Positions 4,664-39,002 of a DNA stretch of 64,000 nt are shown here, in pieces (position 1 is the stretch's first letter; the number at the start of each line of letters is the position of its first letter). The DNA comes from Trujillonella endophytica (GTDB lineage Bacteria; Actinomycetota; Actinomycetes; Mycobacteriales; Geodermatophilaceae). The DNA lies in assembly GCF_900110555.1 (NCBI RefSeq), contig NZ_FOEE01000011.1, positions 1 through 64,000 on the forward strand, read 5' to 3'. A program made the position numbers and the translations under genes. Under the pieces are notes generated by a model that worked only from the letters and a program-made list of their open reading frames with translations, ran no database searches and was not told where the DNA came from.

Positions 4664-6421
4664 TCACCGGCGGCGGGTCTCGGGGAACAGGAGGTCGACG
4701 AAGCGCTCGGCGGTCGGCTGCGGCTCGTGGTTGGCCAGCCCCGGGCGCTCGTTGGCCTCGATGAACACGTAGTCGGGGCCGTCGACGGCGGGCACGAGGA
4801 AGTCGATGCCGGTCACCGGGATGCCCAGCGCCTCGGCCGCGCGCACCGCCGCCTCGGCGATGTCCGGGTGGAGACGGTCGGTGACGTCCTCGATGGTGCC
4901 GCCGGTGTGCAGGTTCGCCGTCCGCCGGACCGGGACGCGCTCCCCGTTGGGCGGGACGTCGTCCATCCCGTAGCCGGCCTCGGCGACCACCTCCGCGGTG
5001 GTGTCGTCCAGCGGGATGCGCGACTCGCCGCCGGTCGCCCGCTCGCGCCGCCGGGAGGTGGAGCGGACGAGGTCGGCCACCGCGTGCCGGCCGTCGCCGA
5101 TGACCTCGGCCGGGCGCCGCACGGCCGCGGCGACGACCTGCCGGTCGATGACGACGACGCGCAGGTCCTCCCCGGGCACGAGCTCCTCGACGAGCACGTC
5201 GGGGCAGAACTGCAGGGCGAGGGCGACCGCGCGCTCGAGCCCCGCGTCGTCGGTCACCCCGACGGTGATCCCCCGCCCCTGCTCGCCGCGGGCCGGCTTG
5301 ACGACGACCGCCCCGACGTCGGCCAGCAGGGCACGCGCCTCCTCGAGGTCGCCGCCGGCCGCCAGGGCACCCCGGGCCACCCGCACGCCGGCGCGGCGCA
5401 TGATCCGGCGGGTCACCCGCTTGTCGTCGCAGCGGCTCAGGGCCACCGCGGTGGTGAACTCCGACAGCGACTCGCGGGTCAGCACCGACCGGCCGCCGAG
5501 CGTCAGGCGCATCTCGCCCCACTCGGCGTCGGTCACCTCCACCCGGATGCCGCGGCGCAGGGCCTCCTCGGCGATGATCGCGGCGTAGGGGTTGAGCCGT
5601 TCCAGGCCGGGCGGCCGCGAGGCGAACAGCGGTGTGTTGATCGGGTTCTTGCTCTTCACGCAGACGGCGGCCACCCGGGTGAAGCCGAGCTTGCGGTACA
5701 GCGTGATCGCCGGCTTGTTGTCGTGCATCACCGAGAGGTCCAGGTAGGACCGGCCGCGGGCGACGTACCGCTCGGCGAGCACCCGCACCAGGGCCTCGCC
5801 CGTGCCGGGCGGGGCGTCCTGCTTGTCCGCCACGAGGCACCACAGGCTGGTGCCGCCCTCCGGATCCCCGAACGCGAGCGCGTGGTCCACCCCGGTCACG
5901 GTGCCGACGATCTTGCGGGTGCGGGTGTCCTCGGCGACGAGGTAGGTGAAGGTGCGGGTGCGGTGGTTGGCCCACATCAGCGCGGGGTCCGAGGCCACCA
6001 TCCCGTTGCGGGCGTAGAGGTCGTCGATGAGCTCCATCTCCGCGTGCGAGGTCACCGTGCGCACGAAGACCCCGCGGATGACGTCGGGGCGCGGCCGGTA
6101 GCGGTGCAGGTCGAGACGGTAGATGAGCGACGGGTCGATGAAGAGCTCGTCGGGCGCCATCCCGACCAGCACCTGCGGGTCCCGCGGGTAGACGCAGATG
6201 TCGCGCCGTCCGGTCGCCTCCGCGCGCAGCGCGCTGACGATGCCCTCCAGCTCGCGGAACGTCTGGCCGAACACGAGCCGGCCCCAGCCCAGGTCCAGGA
6301 CGACGTCGCTGGCCATGCCCTCCCGCTCACGGGCCGACGGCTCGTGCCAGGAGCGGCTGGTCAGGTCCGGCGTGGAGGCGACGGGGGGACGGCGGCGGTG
6401 GCCCGCGAGCCGGGGAGACAC
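4664..6421 (-). CDS. ngg: N-acetylglutaminylglutamine synthetase (GNAT-ATP-grasp fusion)
   Basis: Makes the dipeptide precursor of N-acetylglutaminylglutamine amide (NAGGN), an osmoprotectant described in Sinorhizobium and Pseudomonas. The 585-residue protein fuses two enzymes. The N-terminal half is a GNAT acetyltransferase (about 110-270; LDLSVMHDNKPAITLYRKLG). The C-terminal half is an ATP-grasp ligase (about 300-585) with VVVKPARGEQGRGITVGV, QFCPDVLVEELVPGEDLRV and a terminal IEANERPGLANHEP metal-binding motif. The GTG at 6421 is preceded by AGAGGGGA; a later ATG (MASDVVLDLG, about residue 36) is an alternative start. It follows asnO by 13 nt, so the two form an operon. The M42 peptidase that often completes this trio is not present. 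Confidence 0.92.
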   Translation of the reverse strand: MSPRLAGHRRRPPVASTPDLTSRSWHEPSAREREGMASDVVLDLGWGRLVFGQTFRELEGIVSALRAEATGRRDICVYPRDPQVLVGMAPDELFIDPSLIYRLDLHRYRPRPDVIRGVFVRTVTSHAEMELIDDLYARNGMVASDPALMWANHRTRTFTYLVAEDTRTRKIVGTVTGVDHALAFGDPEGGTSLWCLVADKQDAPPGTGEALVRVLAERYVARGRSYLDLSVMHDNKPAITLYRKLGFTRVAAVCVKSKNPINTPLFASRPPGLERLNPYAAIIAEEALRRGIRVEVTDAEWGEMRLTLGGRSVLTRESLSEFTTAVALSRCDDKRVTRRIMRRAGVRVARGALAAGGDLEEARALLADVGAVVVKPARGEQGRGITVGVTDDAGLERAVALALQFCPDVLVEELVPGEDLRVVVIDRQVVAAAVRRPAEVIGDGRHAVADLVRSTSRRRERATGGESRIPLDDTTAEVVAEAGYGMDDVPPNGERVPVRRTANLHTGGTIEDVTDRLHPDIAEAAVRAAEALGIPVTGIDFLVPAVDGPDYVFIEANERPGLANHEPQPTAERFVDLLFPETRRR

Positions 6422-31814: not shown

Positions 31815-32885
31815 ATGCGCCGCAACCTCGCCGCCTTCCTCGACGGCACCTGGAGCGACGACAACACGAACACCAACGTCGTGCAGATCCACGGCCGGGT
31901 GCCGGACGAGGCGCCCGGGGTGCGCCAGGAGCGGTGCTACGTCCGTGGCGTGGGCACGGGGGTGTCCGACCGCCTGATGGGGGGCGCCTTCGGCGTCGGG
32001 GTCGAGGAGAACATCCGCCGCGCGTACGACTTCCTCGCCGAGCGCTACGAGTCAGCCGACGACCACATCCACCTGATCGGCTACAGCCGGGGCGCGTTCA
32101 CCGCCCGCAGTCTCGCCGGGATGATCGCCAAGTGCGGGCTCATCAGCGCGGCCGACCTCCCCGCGGAGGCCGTCTTCCGGCGGTACCGCGACACCGCCGC
32201 GCCCGGCCTGCGCGAGCTCCAGCAGGGCGAGGCGCGGCCGCGCACGGCCCAGGACGAACTGCTGCTGGCCCGATCGCGGCTGGTGCGGATCCGCTTCCTC
32301 GGGGTCTTCGACACCGTCGGCGCCCTCGGCATCCCCGGCGGCCTGGGCCGGTGGCTCACCCGCCGCCGCTACGAGTTCCACAACACGAACCTGAGCGGGC
32401 TCGTCGACGTCGCCTGCCACGCGGTGGCCCTGGACGAGCGCCGCGGGCTGTTCATGCCGACGATGTGGACGAGCGTGCCCGTGCCGATGCCCGATCATCC
32501 GACGTCGGTCGAGCAGCGCTGGTTCGTGGGTGGCCACACCAACGTCGGCGGAGGCGGCACCCGGGACCCGCAGCGCAGGAATCCGCTCTCCGTGGTGACC
32601 CGCGAGTGGATCGTCGAGCGGGCGGTGGAGGCCGGGCTGGTCGTCGACCCGCCCTCCCCGGCGCCCACGGGGGAGGAGTGGAACGGGCGGATCGACGACT
32701 GGTCCAGCACGCTCCTGGGCCGCCTCGCCGGCCTGCTGCCCGGCAACCGGCGCCGTTCCCGTCCGGTCCGCGAGACCGTCGCGGAGACCCTGGATCCCGG
32801 CGTCCTGCACCGGTGGGGGACCGGCGATCCGCCCTACCTGCCGCGCAATCCCCACCTGGAGCCCTGGGTGCGGTCGCTGCTGTGA
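31815..32885 (+). CDS. DUF2235-family alpha/beta hydrolase
   Basis: 356 residues beginning MRRNLAAFLDGTWSDDNTNT, the diagnostic DUF2235 N-terminus. The nucleophile elbow is IGYSRGAFTARSLAGMI (GxSxG, Ser near residue 95), with the VFDTVGALGIPGG and RWFVGGHTNVGGG motifs that follow. Members include type VI phospholipase effectors (Tle1), but many free-living actinobacteria carry cytoplasmic forms without secretion genes, as here. AGGAGG precedes ATG 31815. It follows the desaturase terminator, so it is probably its own unit, although a phospholipid link to the upstream genes is attractive. Confidence 0.88.
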   Translation: MRRNLAAFLDGTWSDDNTNTNVVQIHGRVPDEAPGVRQERCYVRGVGTGVSDRLMGGAFGVGVEENIRRAYDFLAERYESADDHIHLIGYSRGAFTARSLAGMIAKCGLISAADLPAEAVFRRYRDTAAPGLRELQQGEARPRTAQDELLLARSRLVRIRFLGVFDTVGALGIPGGLGRWLTRRRYEFHNTNLSGLVDVACHAVALDERRGLFMPTMWTSVPVPMPDHPTSVEQRWFVGGHTNVGGGGTRDPQRRNPLSVVTREWIVERAVEAGLVVDPPSPAPTGEEWNGRIDDWSSTLLGRLAGLLPGNRRRSRPVRETVAETLDPGVLHRWGTGDPPYLPRNPHLEPWVRSLL

Positions 32886-32898
32886 CGGCGGTCCGCCC

Positions 32899-33777
32899 TC
32901 AGACCAGCTGCAGCCGCCGCTCGGAGCGGCGCAGCACGATCCGCTGACCCCACGTGAGGGTCAGCCGGTCGGCCTCCAGCCCGTCACCGAAGGCCACCAG
33001 CCCGTCGGACTCCACCGCCAACTCCAGCGCAGCACCGGCGGCCAGCAGCCCCTCGGTGCACGTCGTCCCCGTGGCCGGCGACGGCCACGCCTCGCGCACG
33101 AACCAGGCCAGCCCCGGATCGGTCGGGACCGGCAGCGGCAGGCCGCTGCGCCGCTCCAGCCAGGCCGAGCGGCACCAGCCGGTCGCGCCGGTGCCCGTGG
33201 AGACCAGAACCCCCGACGACGCCTGCCGCTCCGGCTCGGCCCCGGGCGCGGTGAGCCGGTAGCGCGCGGTCTGGTGGGTCGGGGAGCCCACGTACACCTC
33301 GTTGAGCGCCCGCAGCACCTGCCCGTCGTCGGCCACGGCCTCCACCATCGTCAGGGGCGTGGGCGCCGGCCGGTCCCGCAGCAGGGCGGCGACGTCGTCC
33401 GGCCGGTGCCGCACCAGGACGCCGGCGTTGCGGCCGGGCTCGGGGTCGACGCCGATCACCGGCTGCCCGTCCAGGTACTTGGCGACGTTGGCGACCAGCC
33501 CGTCCTGCCCGACGACGAGGACGACGTCGTCCGGGCCGAACAGGTAGCGGGAGAGGTCGGCCCGCTCGACGCCGCCGCGCCGCCAGTCGACCGGGATGCC
33601 CGCCGTCGCCGCGGCCATCGCCCGGGTCACCGCGGCGTCGCGCTCGACTACCTCGGCGAGGTCACGGCCACGGCTGCGCAGGAAGAACCCCGCCTGCGCG
33701 GCCGTGCCGTGCCGGGCGACCAGCTCCCGCAGCTCGGTGCTGCGGGAGACCACGACCACCCGCGGAGCCAGGGTCAC
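32899..33777 (-). CDS. NAD-kinase-like protein in an SPFH operon
   Basis: 292 residues with the diacylglycerol/NAD kinase fold. It shows [18 protein letters not shown] (GGDG-like motif with the catalytic Asp kept but the second Gly replaced by Gln), [34 protein letters not shown] (the Asn-Glu motif) and [16 protein letters not shown] (the STPTGSTAY equivalent). The core residues for NAD binding are therefore present but drifted, so it may phosphorylate NAD(H), bind it, or act on a related dinucleotide. GTG 33777 overlaps the stop of the SPFH gene by 4 nt (GTGA). A true housekeeping NAD kinase would be expected elsewhere in the genome. Its control by a putative NrtR operator supports an NAD role. 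Confidence 0.78.
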
Positions 33778-34772
33778 CGGGCACCGCCGAGCCGAGCCAG
33801 CACCGGGGTCAGCAGGTCGGGGGTGAGCACCAGGCTGTCGATCTTGGGCAGGCTCGTGGCCAGCTCGCGGGCGGCGACGGCCAGCAGCAGGTCGGCCGGG
33901 ATCTCGGCGTGCGCGGTGAGGTACGCCGACGTCGCGTCGCCGCGGGCCGCGCCGGCCAGCCGCTCGGCCTCGGCCCGGACCTGCGCCGCCCGCTGGTCGC
34001 GGCGGGCCTGCGCCTCGCTGGCCACCTCCGCGGCCGCCGCCGCGTGCTCGGCCTCCCGCCGGGCGTTCACCCCGCGCTGGCCGACCAGTTCCTCCTCGCG
34101 CCGGGCCAGCTCGATCTGGTTGGCCAACTCGTTCTCGCTGATGGCGCGCTCGCGCTCGACCGCCAGCGCCCGCCGCTCGTAGGTGGCCCGGTCGGCCTCC
34201 TGCTGCACCCGTTCGCGGGTGGGGGTCTGCAGGGCCCGCTCGACGTCGGCCTCCGGCCGGACGGCGACCACGCGGACCCCGATGACGGCGACGCCGGTCT
34301 CCGCCAGCCGCGTGTCGGCGGCCAGCCCGCGCTCGACGGTGTCCCGGATCGGCGCGACGCCGCGGGTCAGCGCCGTGGCCAGGTCGATGCCGGTCAGCAG
34401 GTCCAGGGCGTGCTGCTGCGCCGACTCGGTCAGCAGGCCGGCGACCTGCTCCAGGGGGGTCCCCCGCCAGACGCCGGTGCCGGGATCGATCGAGAAGTCC
34501 ACGCGCGCGGCGGCCAGGCCGGGGTCGATCACGCGGAAGGTCAGCGTCATCTGCACCGTGACGTCCTGGAAGTCCGCCGTCCGGGCGTGGAAGAGCAGGG
34601 GGAGCTCGCGGTCGTCGACCGGGACCTCCGACAGCACGGCCGACAGCGGGCGGAACCAGAAGCTCGCGCCGGTGGCGCCCTGGACCACGCGGCCGTTGCG
34701 CACGTGCAGGACGTGCGCGGTGGCGCTGCTGCGCAGGTGGCGCACGAGCGGATAGCGGGTGATGTCGGCCAT
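33774..34772 (-). CDS. SPFH/Band 7 domain protein
   Basis: 332 residues of stomatin/prohibitin type but with no N-terminal membrane helix. An SPFH core (about 30-175; [40 protein letters not shown]) is followed by a long Ala/Arg/Glu coiled coil (about 180-290) and a C-terminal helix [24 protein letters not shown] proteins form large rings or scaffolds, usually membrane-linked. GAGGAGG precedes ATG 34772. It is coupled by a 4-nt overlap to the NAD-kinase-like gene and transcribed from a promoter overlapped by two operators shared with the divergent NUDIX regulator. Confidence 0.88.
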
Positions 34773-34792
34773 CGGGGCCTCCTCGGTGGATG

Positions 34793-34813
34793 TTGTCGTC
34801 GGACTGACGATAA
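34793..34813. promoter_or_regulatory. Operator 1 of the SPFH/NUDIX-regulator gap
   Basis: TTGTCGTC-N4-TGACGATAA, an imperfect palindrome (half-sites TTGTCGTC and TTATCGTCA). It covers the -10 of the SPFH promoter. Confidence 0.7.
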
Positions 34814-34836
34814 GCGTCGCGACGGCTTGTCGTCAA
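34807..34836 (-). promoter_or_regulatory. Promoter of the SPFH-NAD-kinase-like operon
   Basis: On the minus strand TTGACG (34831-34836) and TATCGT (34807-34812) are separated by 18 nt, close to the sigma-70 consensus. Both hexamers fall inside the two operator copies, so bound regulator should repress. Confidence 0.6.
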
Positions 34837-34847
34837 CCTGACGATTG
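34827..34847. promoter_or_regulatory. Operator 2 of the SPFH/NUDIX-regulator gap
   Basis: TTGTCGTC-N4-TGACGATTG, the second copy, 34 bp from the first. It covers the -35 of the SPFH promoter and lies just upstream of the regulator's own -10. Confidence 0.7.
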
Positions 34848-34854
34848 CTCGCGC

Positions 34855-34860
34855 TAGGCT
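34855..34860 (+). promoter_or_regulatory. -10 hexamer of the NUDIX regulator gene
   Basis: TAGGCT ends 6 nt before GTG 34867, so the mRNA should be leaderless. Operator 2 lies 7-27 bp upstream of this hexamer, which suggests autoregulation. Confidence 0.55.
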
Positions 34861-34866
34861 GGGGGC

Positions 34867-35565
34867 GTGGCCGGCTACGACCCGAGCGCGTTCCCCGCGG
34901 TGGCGGTGACGGTGGACCTCGTCGTCCTGACCGTCCGGAACGGCGCGCTCTGCGTGCTGGTCGTCCGCCGGGGGGAGGACCCGTTCGCCGGGCGGGAGGC
35001 GCTGCCCGGCGGGTTCGTGCGGCCGGACGAGGACCTGCTGGCCGCGGCCGCCCGGGAGCTCGCCGAGGAGACGGGCCTGGCGCCGGGGACGGCGCACCTG
35101 GAGCAGCTGGCGTCCTACGGTGCGCCCGACCGGGACCCGCGGATGCGAGTGGTCACGGTGGCGCACCTGGCCCTGGTGGCCGATCCGCCGGATCCGCAGG
35201 CCGGCACCGACGCCGCGGCAGCGCGCTGGGCGCCGGTCGACGAGGTGCTGCCCGGGCTCGCGTTCGACCACGACCGGGTGCTGCGCGACGGGGTGGACCG
35301 CGCGCGGGCGAAGCTGGAGTACACGGCGCTGGCTGCGTCGTTCTGCCGGGCCGGGTTCACCGTCGCCGAGCTGCGCCGGGTGTACGAGGCGGTGTGGGGG
35401 CGGCCGCTGGACCCGCGCAACTTCCACCGGAAGGTCACCAGCGCGGCCGGCTTCCTGGAGGCGACGGGGGAGACGACGACCCGGGACGGCGGCCGCCCGG
35501 CCCAGCTGTACCGCCGGGGACCGGCGACCCTCCTGCACCCGCCGCTGCTGCGCGCCGACAGCTGA
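34867..35565 (+). CDS. NrtR-like NUDIX transcriptional regulator
   Basis: 232 residues. The N-terminal NUDIX domain has a complete Nudix box (about 48-71: [10 protein letters not shown], then REAEE-type RELAEETGL), so hydrolase activity is possible. The C-terminal domain (about 150-232) is a winged helix: [20 protein letters not shown], then [19 protein letters not shown], as in NrtR regulators of NAD metabolism that sense ADP-ribose or NAD. It is divergent from the SPFH-NAD-kinase-like operon with two operators in between, so it probably represses both directions. NrtR proteins usually lack a perfect Nudix box; its retention here is notable. Confidence 0.86.
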
Positions 35566-36352: not shown

Positions 36353-38965
36353 TCAGTTGGCCATGTCCACGAAGCGGCTGTAGTGGCCCTGGAAGGCGAC
36401 CGTGACGTTGGCCGTGGGGCCGTTGCGGTGCTTGACCAGCATGATGTCGGCCTCGCCGGCCCGCGGTGATTCCTTCTCGTACATGTCTTCTCTGTGAATC
36501 ATCATCACCATGTCGGCGTCCTGCTCGATGCTGCCCGACTCGCGAAGGTCGGAGAGCATCGGCTTCTTGTCCTGGCGCTGCTCAGAACCTCGGTTCAGCT
36601 GCGACATGGCGATGACCGGGCATTCGATCTCCTTGGCCAGGAGCTTGAGGGCACGGGAGAACTCCGAGACCTCCTGCTGGCGACTCTCGACCCGCTTGCC
36701 CGACGTCATCAGCTGCAGGTAGTCGATGACCACGAGCTTGAGGTCGTTGCGCTGCTTGAGACGCCGCGCCTTGGCCCGGATCTCCATCATCGTCATGTTG
36801 GGCGAGTCGTCGATGTAGAGCGGGGCGTCGGCCACCTCGCCCATCCGGCGGGCCAGCTTCGACCAGTCCTCGTCCGAGAGCGTGCCGGCGCGCATGTGGT
36901 GCAGCGGCACCTTCGCCTCGGCCGACAGCAGACGCATGGTGATCTCGTGCTTGCTCATCTCGAGCGAGAAGATGACGGTCGCCTGGTGGTTCTTGATGGC
37001 CGCCGACCGTGCGATGTCGAGACCCAGCGTGGAGTTGTGCGTCGGGATGAAGCTGCGGCCGGCGAGGAACAGCGAGTCCGCGGCGTCCACCTGGATGCAC
37101 CGGACCGGAACGCTGGGGATCGGCCGGACGTCGGTGATGAACCGGACGCCGCGCGCGGTGAAGGTCCGCGCCCCGCGCTCCTTGTGCAGCAGCTTCTTGC
37201 GCTCGAGCCGGAAGACCTCGTCGTCCGTGCTGAAGGTCAGCGTGTAGCAGGTCGAGGACTCCTCGGTACGGCCTCGCACCCGCTTCGTACTCATCCGCAC
37301 CCGGTGGCCCAGGCCGGCGATCAGCTCGCGGGCGTCCTCGGCCAGTCGGCGGCTGGTCACCGCGAACTGCACCGCACCGCTGGGGGCCACCGTGCCGTCG
37401 GTGTCGAGCAGCCCCGCCAGCAGCGCGCGTCGCTGCCCGACCGACGCCCGCAGGTACGACGTCGGGATGTGCTTGTTCCCGAGCACGCCCAGGCCGCGCA
37501 GCAGCGCCGTGACCGTGCCGTGGTCGTCGCGGCACGGCTGGCACAGCGCCATCCCCGAGGAGGGACCCCCGCAGTCGGGGCAGGCAGCCTGCTGGCCCAC
37601 GCCGCCCGCGGCCCGGAGTCGCCCGCCGCACGTCTTGCCACAGGTCTGCACCTGGGACGTCCGCGGGACGAAGACCTCGCCGCACACGGGGCACGACCGC
37701 GGGGCGATGGCGGGCGCAGGGAGGCGGAGCGAGTACCGGCGGTCGATACCCGCCAGCTCGGCCACCAGGCCCTCGCCCTCGATGTAGGCGGCGATCTCCG
37801 GGTCGGCGCTGGTGAACTGCGCCGCGGCAGAGGTGCCGTCTCCGAGCCAGACGCCCAGCGCGTAGGGGGGCAAGGGGAGGTCGGCGTCGGGCAGGTCCAG
37901 CGGCGCGGCATTCGTCACCGAGTGATTGAGCCGCGCGTCCTTGGTCGCGCACCGGACGGTGCGGGCGATCTCCTCCGTGGTGCGCACCTCGGCGAAGGTG
38001 CGCTGGTTCCGGTAGCGGTCGTAGCCGGTGCGCGCCCGGTGTGCCGAACGGCGGCTGGCGCGGGTCTCGGTCAGCCACTGGTGCTGGGCGTCGGCCACGA
38101 TCACCGAGCCGTCGGAGAAGTGCACCTCGTAGCAGGGCCGGTCGGTCAGCACGTCCGTGGCGGCCACCACCGTGGTCGGCCGGCCGTCGGATCCCAGAAC
38201 GCGGTCCCCCACCGCGATCCCGCCCATCGTCGTCCAGCCGGTCGGGGTGGCGACGGGGGTGTCGAGGGCGAGGGCCTTGCCCACGCCGGGCCTCGCCGCG
38301 ATGACGATCATCTGCCCGGCCTGCAGACCGTTCGTCAATTCGTCCAGGTCGCGGATGCCGGTCGGCACCCCGCGGCTCACGCCGCCGCGGCTGGCGATCG
38401 CGTCGAGCTCGTCCATCGTCGGCTGGAGGACGTCCTCCAGCCGCGAGTAGTCCTCGCTCATCCGCTTCTCGGTGACGTCGTAGATCTCCTGCTGGGCGCG
38501 GTCGACGATGTCGTCGACGTCGCCCTTGCCGCCCGCGGCGCCGTAGCCCAGCTGCACGACGCGCGTGCCGGCCTCGACCAGCCGCCGCAGCACCGCCTGC
38601 TCGGCGACGATCGCGGCGTAGTAGCCGGCGTTGGCCGCCGTCGGCGTCGAGGCGATCAGCGTGTGCAGGTAGACCGCGCCGCCCATCTTCGACAGCTGGT
38701 CGGTGCGGTTGAGCTCGGCGGCGACGGTGATCGCGTCGGCCGGCTCGCCGCGGCCGTAGAGGTCGAGGATGCAGTCGAAGACGATCTGGTGCGCGGGCCG
38801 GTAGAAGTCGTTGCCGTGCAGCTGCTCCACGACGTCGGCGATCGCGTCCTTGCTCAGCAGCATCCCGCCGAGCACCGACTGCTCCGCCTGCACGTCCTGC
38901 GGCGGCTGCCGGTCGTACGCCGGCGCCGTCGCCTGCGGCCGGCTGAAGTCGTCGGCCACCGCCAC
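36353..38965 (-). CDS. dnaB: Replicative DNA helicase, intein-containing precursor
   Basis: The hexameric helicase that opens the replication fork. The 870-residue precursor contains a 414-residue intein; removing it leaves 456 residues, the normal DnaB length. The N-terminal domain starts RQPPQDVQAEQSVLGGMLLS. The ATPase has Walker A split as ARPGVGK / STLGLD, the intein lying between Lys and Ser, then Walker B LVVIDYLQLMTSG and the MSQLNRGSEQR / RESGSIEQDAD motifs. Splicing is therefore essential for ATP binding. GTG 38965 has GGAGGA five nt upstream. A LexA box lies 95 bp upstream and a GC hairpin lies in the leader. In actinobacteria dnaB normally follows rplI as here. Confidence 0.97.
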   Translation of the reverse strand: MAVADDFSRPQATAPAYDRQPPQDVQAEQSVLGGMLLSKDAIADVVEQLHGNDFYRPAHQIVFDCILDLYGRGEPADAITVAAELNRTDQLSKMGGAVYLHTLIASTPTAANAGYYAAIVAEQAVLRRLVEAGTRVVQLGYGAAGGKGDVDDIVDRAQQEIYDVTEKRMSEDYSRLEDVLQPTMDELDAIASRGGVSRGVPTGIRDLDELTNGLQAGQMIVIAARPGVGKALALDTPVATPTGWTTMGGIAVGDRVLGSDGRPTTVVAATDVLTDRPCYEVHFSDGSVIVADAQHQWLTETRASRRSAHRARTGYDRYRNQRTFAEVRTTEEIARTVRCATKDARLNHSVTNAAPLDLPDADLPLPPYALGVWLGDGTSAAAQFTSADPEIAAYIEGEGLVAELAGIDRRYSLRLPAPAIAPRSCPVCGEVFVPRTSQVQTCGKTCGGRLRAAGGVGQQAACPDCGGPSSGMALCQPCRDDHGTVTALLRGLGVLGNKHIPTSYLRASVGQRRALLAGLLDTDGTVAPSGAVQFAVTSRRLAEDARELIAGLGHRVRMSTKRVRGRTEESSTCYTLTFSTDDEVFRLERKKLLHKERGARTFTARGVRFITDVRPIPSVPVRCIQVDAADSLFLAGRSFIPTHNSTLGLDIARSAAIKNHQATVIFSLEMSKHEITMRLLSAEAKVPLHHMRAGTLSDEDWSKLARRMGEVADAPLYIDDSPNMTMMEIRAKARRLKQRNDLKLVVIDYLQLMTSGKRVESRQQEVSEFSRALKLLAKEIECPVIAMSQLNRGSEQRQDKKPMLSDLRESGSIEQDADMVMMIHREDMYEKESPRAGEADIMLVKHRNGPTANVTVAFQGHYSRFVDMAN
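37034..38275 (-). other. Class 3 intein with LAGLIDADG endonuclease, in DnaB Walker A
   Basis: 414 residues from ALALDTPVATPTGW to SFIPTHN, precursor residues 231-644, followed by Ser+1. The first residue is Ala, so standard N-S acyl shift is impossible. The class 3 triplet is present: Trp67 in block B (DAQHQWLT), Cys393 in block F (VRCIQVD) and Thr412 in block G (THN). Known class 3 inteins begin splicing by direct attack of the block F Cys. Endonuclease motifs LGVWLGDGT and LLAGLLDTDG carry both catalytic Asp. Between them lies a Cys-rich insert (CPVCGEVF, CGKTCGG, CPDCGG, CQPC) that looks like zinc fingers. The endonuclease is probably active and mobile. Confidence 0.93.
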
Positions 38966-39002
38966 GTCGGTCCTCCATCCACTCCGGGCGCACCCCGCCA
39001 CC

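Follow-up and report, generated by a model that had tools for sequence, protein, structure and literature searches.

A conserved gene trio of an NrtR-type regulator, an SPFH protein and a NADK2-like protein, with a proposed role in NAD turnover

NrtR regulators, like those of Shewanella (SoNrtR) and Mycobacterium smegmatis (MsNrtR), combine a Nudix domain with a winged helix, are encoded divergently from a target operon and have palindromic operators. They are known for the control of nicotinamide adenine dinucleotide (NAD) synthesis and salvage. NrtR-controlled salvage genes switch on when a toxin destroys NAD (available part of PMC11535050), and ADP-ribose suppresses the DNA binding of SoNrtR (available part of PMC4666351). 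The 64,000-nt stretch of Trujillonella endophytica DNA analyzed here (contig NZ_FOEE01000011.1, positions 1–64,000; "the window") contains, at 32899–35565, a regulator with the same domains, the same divergent arrangement and palindromic operators, but the conserved output is neither synthesis nor salvage of NAD. It is a pair of genes for an SPFH protein and a NAD-kinase-like protein. The three genes announced by the original prediction are all found in place (open reading frames and Pfam matches), and the three-gene module is real and widespread.

The window regulator is 36% identical to SoNrtR, and its target is not nad biosynthesis. Its Nudix box is intact, whereas that of NrtR is described as impaired (PMC4666351, same part), and its operators differ from the MsNrtR operator, GTTTTCGA-N7-TCGAAAAC (PMC6800001, in the part available). 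Compared with human mitochondrial NADK2 (about 20% identity), the kinase-like protein has GQDG instead of GGDG and is paired with an SPFH protein. An SPFH domain followed by a long helix is common to HflK/C, stomatin, erlin, prohibitin, flotillin and the window SPFH protein; in contrast to the others, the latter has no predicted membrane span and a kinase-like gene partner. In mitochondria, prohibitin and NADK2 keep company, a parallel to the SPFH and NADK2-like pair with no demonstrated homology of the pair.

The SPFH gene (33774–34772, minus strand, 332 residues) and the kinase-like gene (32899–33777, minus strand, GTG start, 292 residues) overlap by GTGA at 33774–33777, where the stop of the first meets the start of the second, in keeping with the translational coupling claimed for them. 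The regulator gene (34867–35565, plus strand, GTG start, 232 residues) faces away from both.

A search of 97 genomes (own included) with the kinase-like protein (E ≤ 1e-3) gave matches in 25: the own genome and 20 others with strong matches, one with a fragment and three with weak matches. In all 20 other strong genomes the SPFH gene adjoins the kinase-like gene, and in 18 the regulator is divergent. The module is broken in two genes at one locus (L056) and has split frames at another (L055); at L054 there is neither an adjacent regulator nor sites. Across the phylum, matches at E ≤ 1e-3 occur in 43 of 396 genomes; they are strong in 12 (E < 1e-100, own included) and a fragment in one, while the weak matches of the other 30 (best 1e-10) are probably ordinary NAD kinases. 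At least 520 confirmed relatives came from a scan of species genomes, and the counts on wider loci rest on the best 80. Among the matches listed, the nearest named relatives are from Blastococcus (kinase-like protein 87%–89% identical in three records).

In 80/80 fetched relatives, the SPFH gene is upstream of the kinase-like gene on the same strand. Of 100 loci, 8 were duplicates, and the 92 distinct ones (93 with the window) were kept. A divergent regulator lies within 400 bp in 69/92, and the SPFH and kinase matches to hidden Markov models (HMMs) are at most 120 bp apart in 82/92 and farther apart in 10/92. Conservation of the neighborhood, whose absence was to count as a refutation of the original prediction, is thus observed. 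Because the GC-based gene caller missed or misplaced genes, module counts were taken from HMM searches: its clusters include the SPFH gene in only 76, the kinase-like gene in 57 and the regulator gene in 50 of 80 loci, and it called antisense frames over the kinase-like gene. Beyond the module, no neighboring gene was found in more than 10 of 80 loci, mainly of Lentzea, by a crude clustering in which the minority of clusters were looked up.

Between the divergent genes, operator 1 (TTGTCGTCGGACTGACGATAA, 34793–34813; shorter pattern match 34793–34811) and operator 2 (TTGTCGTCAACCTGACGATTG, 34827–34847; shorter pattern match 34827–34845), neither assigned to a strand, are both exact copies of TTGTCGTC-N4-TGACGAT, 34 bp apart, just where two tandem copies had been reported. 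The exact pattern is present only at these two places in the 4.87-Mb genome, with no further exact or one-mismatch place; at two mismatches there are 19 places, versus 1 for a reversed control pattern. Within the window, with up to three mismatches, the 4 operator matches are little above chance (shuffle mean 1.01). A larger regulon in this genome was considered and rejected: a longer palindrome with up to three mismatches finds, genome-wide, the two operators and a single additional place, in contig C13 (control 0).

In the relatives, a site was scored at 16 or more of 21 positions, the three unspecified positions counting as matches. The 93 regions (window included) have two sites in 80 cases, one in 10 and none in three. 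The 80 pairs are spaced by 34 bp (59), 33 bp (19), 36 bp (one) or 25 bp (one). Control stretches from the same loci (n = 5054) have one site in 32 cases and two in none.

On the SPFH strand of the window, TTGACG (34831–34836) and TATCGT (34807–34812), with an 18-bp spacer, form a putative −35 and −10, the former inside operator 2 and the latter inside operator 1. The pattern TTGACn-(17 or 18 bp)-TAnnnT is present in 76 of the 93 distinct regions, with both hexamers always within sites, and was not found in the other 17; among control stretches, it occurs in 6 of 4949. The claim of tandem operators on the promoters holds as to place, but the most plausible account is that one copy contains the −35 and the other the −10 of a single promoter, so that operator spacing would equal promoter spacing. 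For the regulator (plus strand), TAGGCT (34855–34860) is a possible −10, 7 bp from the end of operator 2 and 6 bp 5′ of the GTG; because this distance is so short, the transcript may be leaderless. As the sites cover the putative SPFH promoter and operator 2 ends just short of the possible −10 of the regulator, a bound protein should silence both directions.

There are variants of this region. In two Streptomyces-type genomes (G119 and G285), the sites are 44 bp apart. In G119 (L209), two more perfect palindromes, TTATCGTC-N5-GACGATAA, occur at 5070 and 11509, 6.4 kb apart, close to the starts of predicted genes that have no Pfam match. At L224, the SPFH promoter faces genes for arginine deiminase and ornithine carbamoyltransferase (Pfam), and similar sequences face it in three Streptomyces loci (L096, L135 and L136).

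In the Streptomyces group, the regulator gene lies apart from the SPFH–kinase pair. The unlinked regulator has a one-mismatch site in 7/7 genomes of one Streptomyces-type genus and in 8/8 genomes of Streptomyces, Kitasatospora, Actinacidiphila and Streptacidiphilus; in these 15 genomes the site stands 28–34 bp 5′ of the start of the regulator match. In the seven genomes of the Streptomyces-type genus, with at most one mismatch, 20 of the 25 site places are at the module or at the unlinked regulator (reversed control, 1 in all). In G489 and G305, where only distant regulator relatives were found, the module has no site, and in G488, with again only a distant relative, it has one altered site (TTATGGTCATAGTGACCATAA). 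Upstream of that distant regulator is TTTTCGATTCTAAGTCGAAAA, close to the mycobacterial NrtR box as given in the available part of PMC6800001; the site of the module clade is therefore distinct. These patterns support a pairing of regulator and site that persists when the genes are unlinked.

The regulator matches NUDIX (PF00293, 1.9e-22) in its N-terminal part and NrtR_WHD (PF21906, 1.8e-16) in its C-terminal part, as do members of the NrtR family, and it is the only NrtR_WHD match in this genome. Its Nudix box fits GX5EX7REUXEEXGU, in agreement with the intact box noted before; the box is intact in 17 of 18 aligned regulators (that of L052 differs at the late Gly). Against the NrtR equivalog model of NCBIfam (NF050029), it scores 141.7 bits, below the curated cut-off of 400; even Shewanella NrtR reaches just 228, which makes the cut-off a poor judge. 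The match of the Providencia regulator to chain 3gz5 extends over the full length (1.7e-108). Shewanella NrtR is 66%–73% identical to the module-side regulators of Methylomonas, Proteus, Providencia (72%) and Acinetobacter, and it nests in the clade of these proteobacterial module regulators (support 100/100) in a tree whose bootstrap is not settled and where long branches meet for the nad-linked rows. Regulators beside nadA (Pfam), or beside genes read as nadB and nadC, are such distant long branches, of unsure place.

According to the available part of PMC4666351, Shewanella NrtR contacts ADP-ribose by Tyr10, Phe15, Arg41, Asn43, Lys76 and Arg98. At those positions the window regulator has Tyr, Phe, Arg, Glu, Glu and Arg (four of six kept), and Arg41 and Arg98 are kept in 68/68 actinobacterial module regulators. 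The sister clade of the window regulator's clade (support 91/85) adjoins an ADP-ribosylglycohydrolase gene in 7/7 loci, six of them in the tree. The Shewanella NrtR relatives and these paralogues support a link of the module to NAD or ADP-ribose, and ADP-ribose is the proposed effector of the window regulator. The seven loci are L211, L213, L223, L238, L239, L240 and L241, four of them in Streptomyces genomes; upstream of the L213 regulator there is a dyad, TTATAGTCGTGCTGACTATAA. At L214 (4094–5998, minus strand), a paralogous regulator from the window regulator's own clade precedes a gene with a PNP_UDP_1 phosphorylase domain.

For the kinase-like protein, the predicted fold is of NAD kinase type, nearest to human NADK2. 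There is no Pfam match up to E 0.1, the NAD_kinase profile included, and the NCBIfam NAD-kinase matches are weak (best 1.1e-4); members from Rhizobium, Providencia and Treponema also lack a Pfam NAD_kinase match. The motif (33499–33510, minus strand; VGQDGL in the window) is GQDG in 61 and GPDG in 4 of 65 aligned members, and GQDGLVAN in the 11/11 plasmid-collection members read. The Asp at the catalytic position and NE are kept in 65/65; ND replaces NE in eight plasmid-collection members. The replacement of GGDG had been presented as a deviation in a protein that keeps its core motifs: the motifs are indeed kept, and GQDG is a mark of the family, not an oddity. "Ordinary NAD kinase" was discarded as a label, given the missing GGDG and the missing Pfam profile match.

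The SPFH protein has a Band_7 domain (PF01145, 7.2e-12) followed by a long helix (residues 175–287). Its structure model (predicted local distance difference test score, pLDDT, 88.4) is best matched in the PDB by a chain of the HflK/C assembly (9cz2, 6.9e-12); erlin and stomatin are other near folds. By analogy, ring formation can be proposed. Its best 19-residue hydropathy mean, 1.19, is too low for a membrane span; since no stretch is hydrophobic enough, the protein may be soluble or lie on a membrane face.

The module also occurs outside Actinobacteria. Among 72,556 plasmid records searched at the protein level, 57 have a relative, 42 of them from Rhizobium; eleven stretches were read, two of them rhizobial. 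An annotated Nudix gene divergent from the SPFH gene, then the kinase-like gene, is present in the two Rhizobium stretches, in Methylomonas and in Providencia. Rhizobium etli CFN 42 is one carrier of the SPFH–kinase pair. HMM searches find the same trio in Proteus, in an unannotated Cupriavidus record and in Acinetobacter (there with an apparently interrupted SPFH frame). In Treponema, the Nudix gene is 4 kb away from the SPFH–kinase pair; in Roseomonas and Kitasatospora plasmid stretches the pair has no adjacent regulator, and the small plasmid pAST2 has a truncated SPFH gene, with no regulator found. The proteobacterial and Treponema intergenic regions have repeated dyads of other sequence, although the short repeats may be due to chance, and one Rhizobium region has no direct repeat. 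The kinase-like gene adjoins tet(J) or tet(H) in Proteus, Acinetobacter and pAST2 (L251, L253 and L254), and small Pasteurellaceae plasmids have partial matches to it.

That the trio is kept together in very different bacteria suggests an uncharacterized response to NAD loss. We infer DNA binding and repression by the regulator, the activity and substrate of the kinase, and a physical SPFH–kinase assembly, as follows. An NrtR-family dimer would sit on the two palindromes spanning the −35 and −10 of the SPFH–kinase promoter and, with operator 2 also over the regulator's own promoter region, would repress both directions. Upon NAD cleavage, ADP-ribose (or a close NAD fragment) would bind to the Nudix domain and repression would be lifted. 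The products of the coupled genes would then be an SPFH ring or dome, either soluble or membrane-peripheral, and a GQDG kinase of NADK2 type, which probably works on the SPFH assembly and phosphorylates NAD(H) to its 2′-phosphate form, NADP(H), thereby guarding the NAD pool being lost. To this NAD-turnover response, an ADP-ribose-relieved repressor controlling an SPFH assembly and an NADK2-type kinase, we assign a probability of roughly 55%.

Several observations weigh against it. In the regulators, the Lys76 position is Glu in 68/68, Asn43 is Glu in the window and mostly Glu or Ile in the family, and positions 10 and 15 vary (Tyr in 24/68, Phe in 31/68). Arg98 is kept in none of four nad-linked NrtR rows, two of which are the same gene. 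The window regulator's clade includes seven regulators away from any module found, and a common origin of actinobacterial and proteobacterial module regulators has a support of only 77/35. As to the sites, modules at L100, L133 and L054 have none; the regulators of G492 (two) and G089 have no site, though their modules do, and in G487 the regulator is distant and interrupted and there is no site. The kinase-like protein lacks the GGDG of NAD kinases, so that catalysis may differ, and three other places in the genome score above the Pfam NAD_kinase cut-off. Lastly, AraR is about as close to the window regulator as Shewanella NrtR.

The strongest alternative, to which we give perhaps one chance in a handful, is that the kinase-like protein does not catalyze but senses dinucleotides, the binding of NAD(H) or ADP-ribose telling the SPFH assembly when to form or open. 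GQDG would weaken phosphate-donor binding: the second Gly of GGDG is replaced in every aligned member and in the eleven others, and the genome has its other NAD_kinase matches. The invariant Asp and NE, however, suit catalysis. In a more speculative variant, which we consider improbable, the GQDG proteins would be 2′-kinases of ADP-ribose or another NAD fragment rather than NAD kinases, would form a branch of NAD metabolism so far unknown and would perhaps be the bacterial kin that gave rise to the mitochondrial NADK2 line. The molecule that lifts repression would be taken up by the SPFH cage and phosphorylated there, for disposal or as a signal. If true, the gene pair of a new branch of NAD metabolism would be present in at least three phyla.

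The signal for the regulator could instead be a sugar or sugar phosphate, as arabinose is for AraR, with the kinase being a metabolic enzyme for another substrate and NAD being incidental. AraR is the best PDB profile match of the regulator (2.6e-39), and RefSeq names the rhizobial kinase a sugar kinase. We hold this to be unlikely, slightly more so than the 2′-kinase variant: relatives of Shewanella NrtR stand beside the module, the sister clade is linked to ADP-ribosylglycohydrolase, the predicted fold of the kinase-like protein is that of NAD kinases, and AraR has Gly where the module regulators have the invariant Arg98, for which we lowered our estimate somewhat. A device for phage defense or abortive infection that NAD depletion sets off, the defense half of the originally predicted "stress or defense" response, is unsupported and very improbable: NAD cleavage is common in such systems, and the distribution is patchy (strong matches in 21/97 genomes, own included) and extends to plasmids, but PADLOC gives a single weak match (PDC-S07, 8e-4, to the Nudix part of the regulator) and none for the SPFH or kinase-like protein, 50,697 phage records contain no match, and no third gene recurs widely beside it in the crude clustering.

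Returning to the NAD-turnover response, its novelty depends on earlier work in γ-proteobacteria, where the pair is found divergent from genes for close SoNrtR relatives. A 2008 NrtR study reportedly gave the names nrtX and nrtY to two targets whose function was unknown, and these may be the SPFH–kinase pair in Shewanella and relatives. If so, the γ-proteobacterial association is already known, and the present analysis adds what the parts are, an actinobacterial branch with its operators, and how far the module has spread. Open literature searches, with the founding NrtR papers outside their reach, found no work joining SPFH and NAD kinase, and nothing on an NrtR regulon with SPFH or on SPFH with NAD kinase and Nudix. 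Among the matches listed for nrtX/nrtY, and for band 7, NAD kinase, NrtR and stomatin-like terms, nothing is relevant; in the example looked at of co-mention of SPFH and Nudix, the words are unrelated in the part available. As far as these searches show, the module is undescribed as a unit. A scaffold together with a kinase family whose tested members lack any Pfam match suggests that a step is missing from the current picture of how bacterial cells cope with NAD loss. With its sites and motifs, and with a close relative of the regulator known from biochemistry, the module can be tested directly.

Two neighbors can be mentioned. Convergent with the kinase-like gene is a gene with a catalytic domain like that of the type VI secretion phospholipase Tle1 (31818–32882, plus strand, 4.8e-64), not seen beside the module in the loci of 20 relatives. 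On the other side, the DnaB helicase gene at 36353–39001 (minus strand) seems to be interrupted by an intein: its DnaB_C match falls into two parts, and residues 523–595 of the product form a LAGLIDADG domain.

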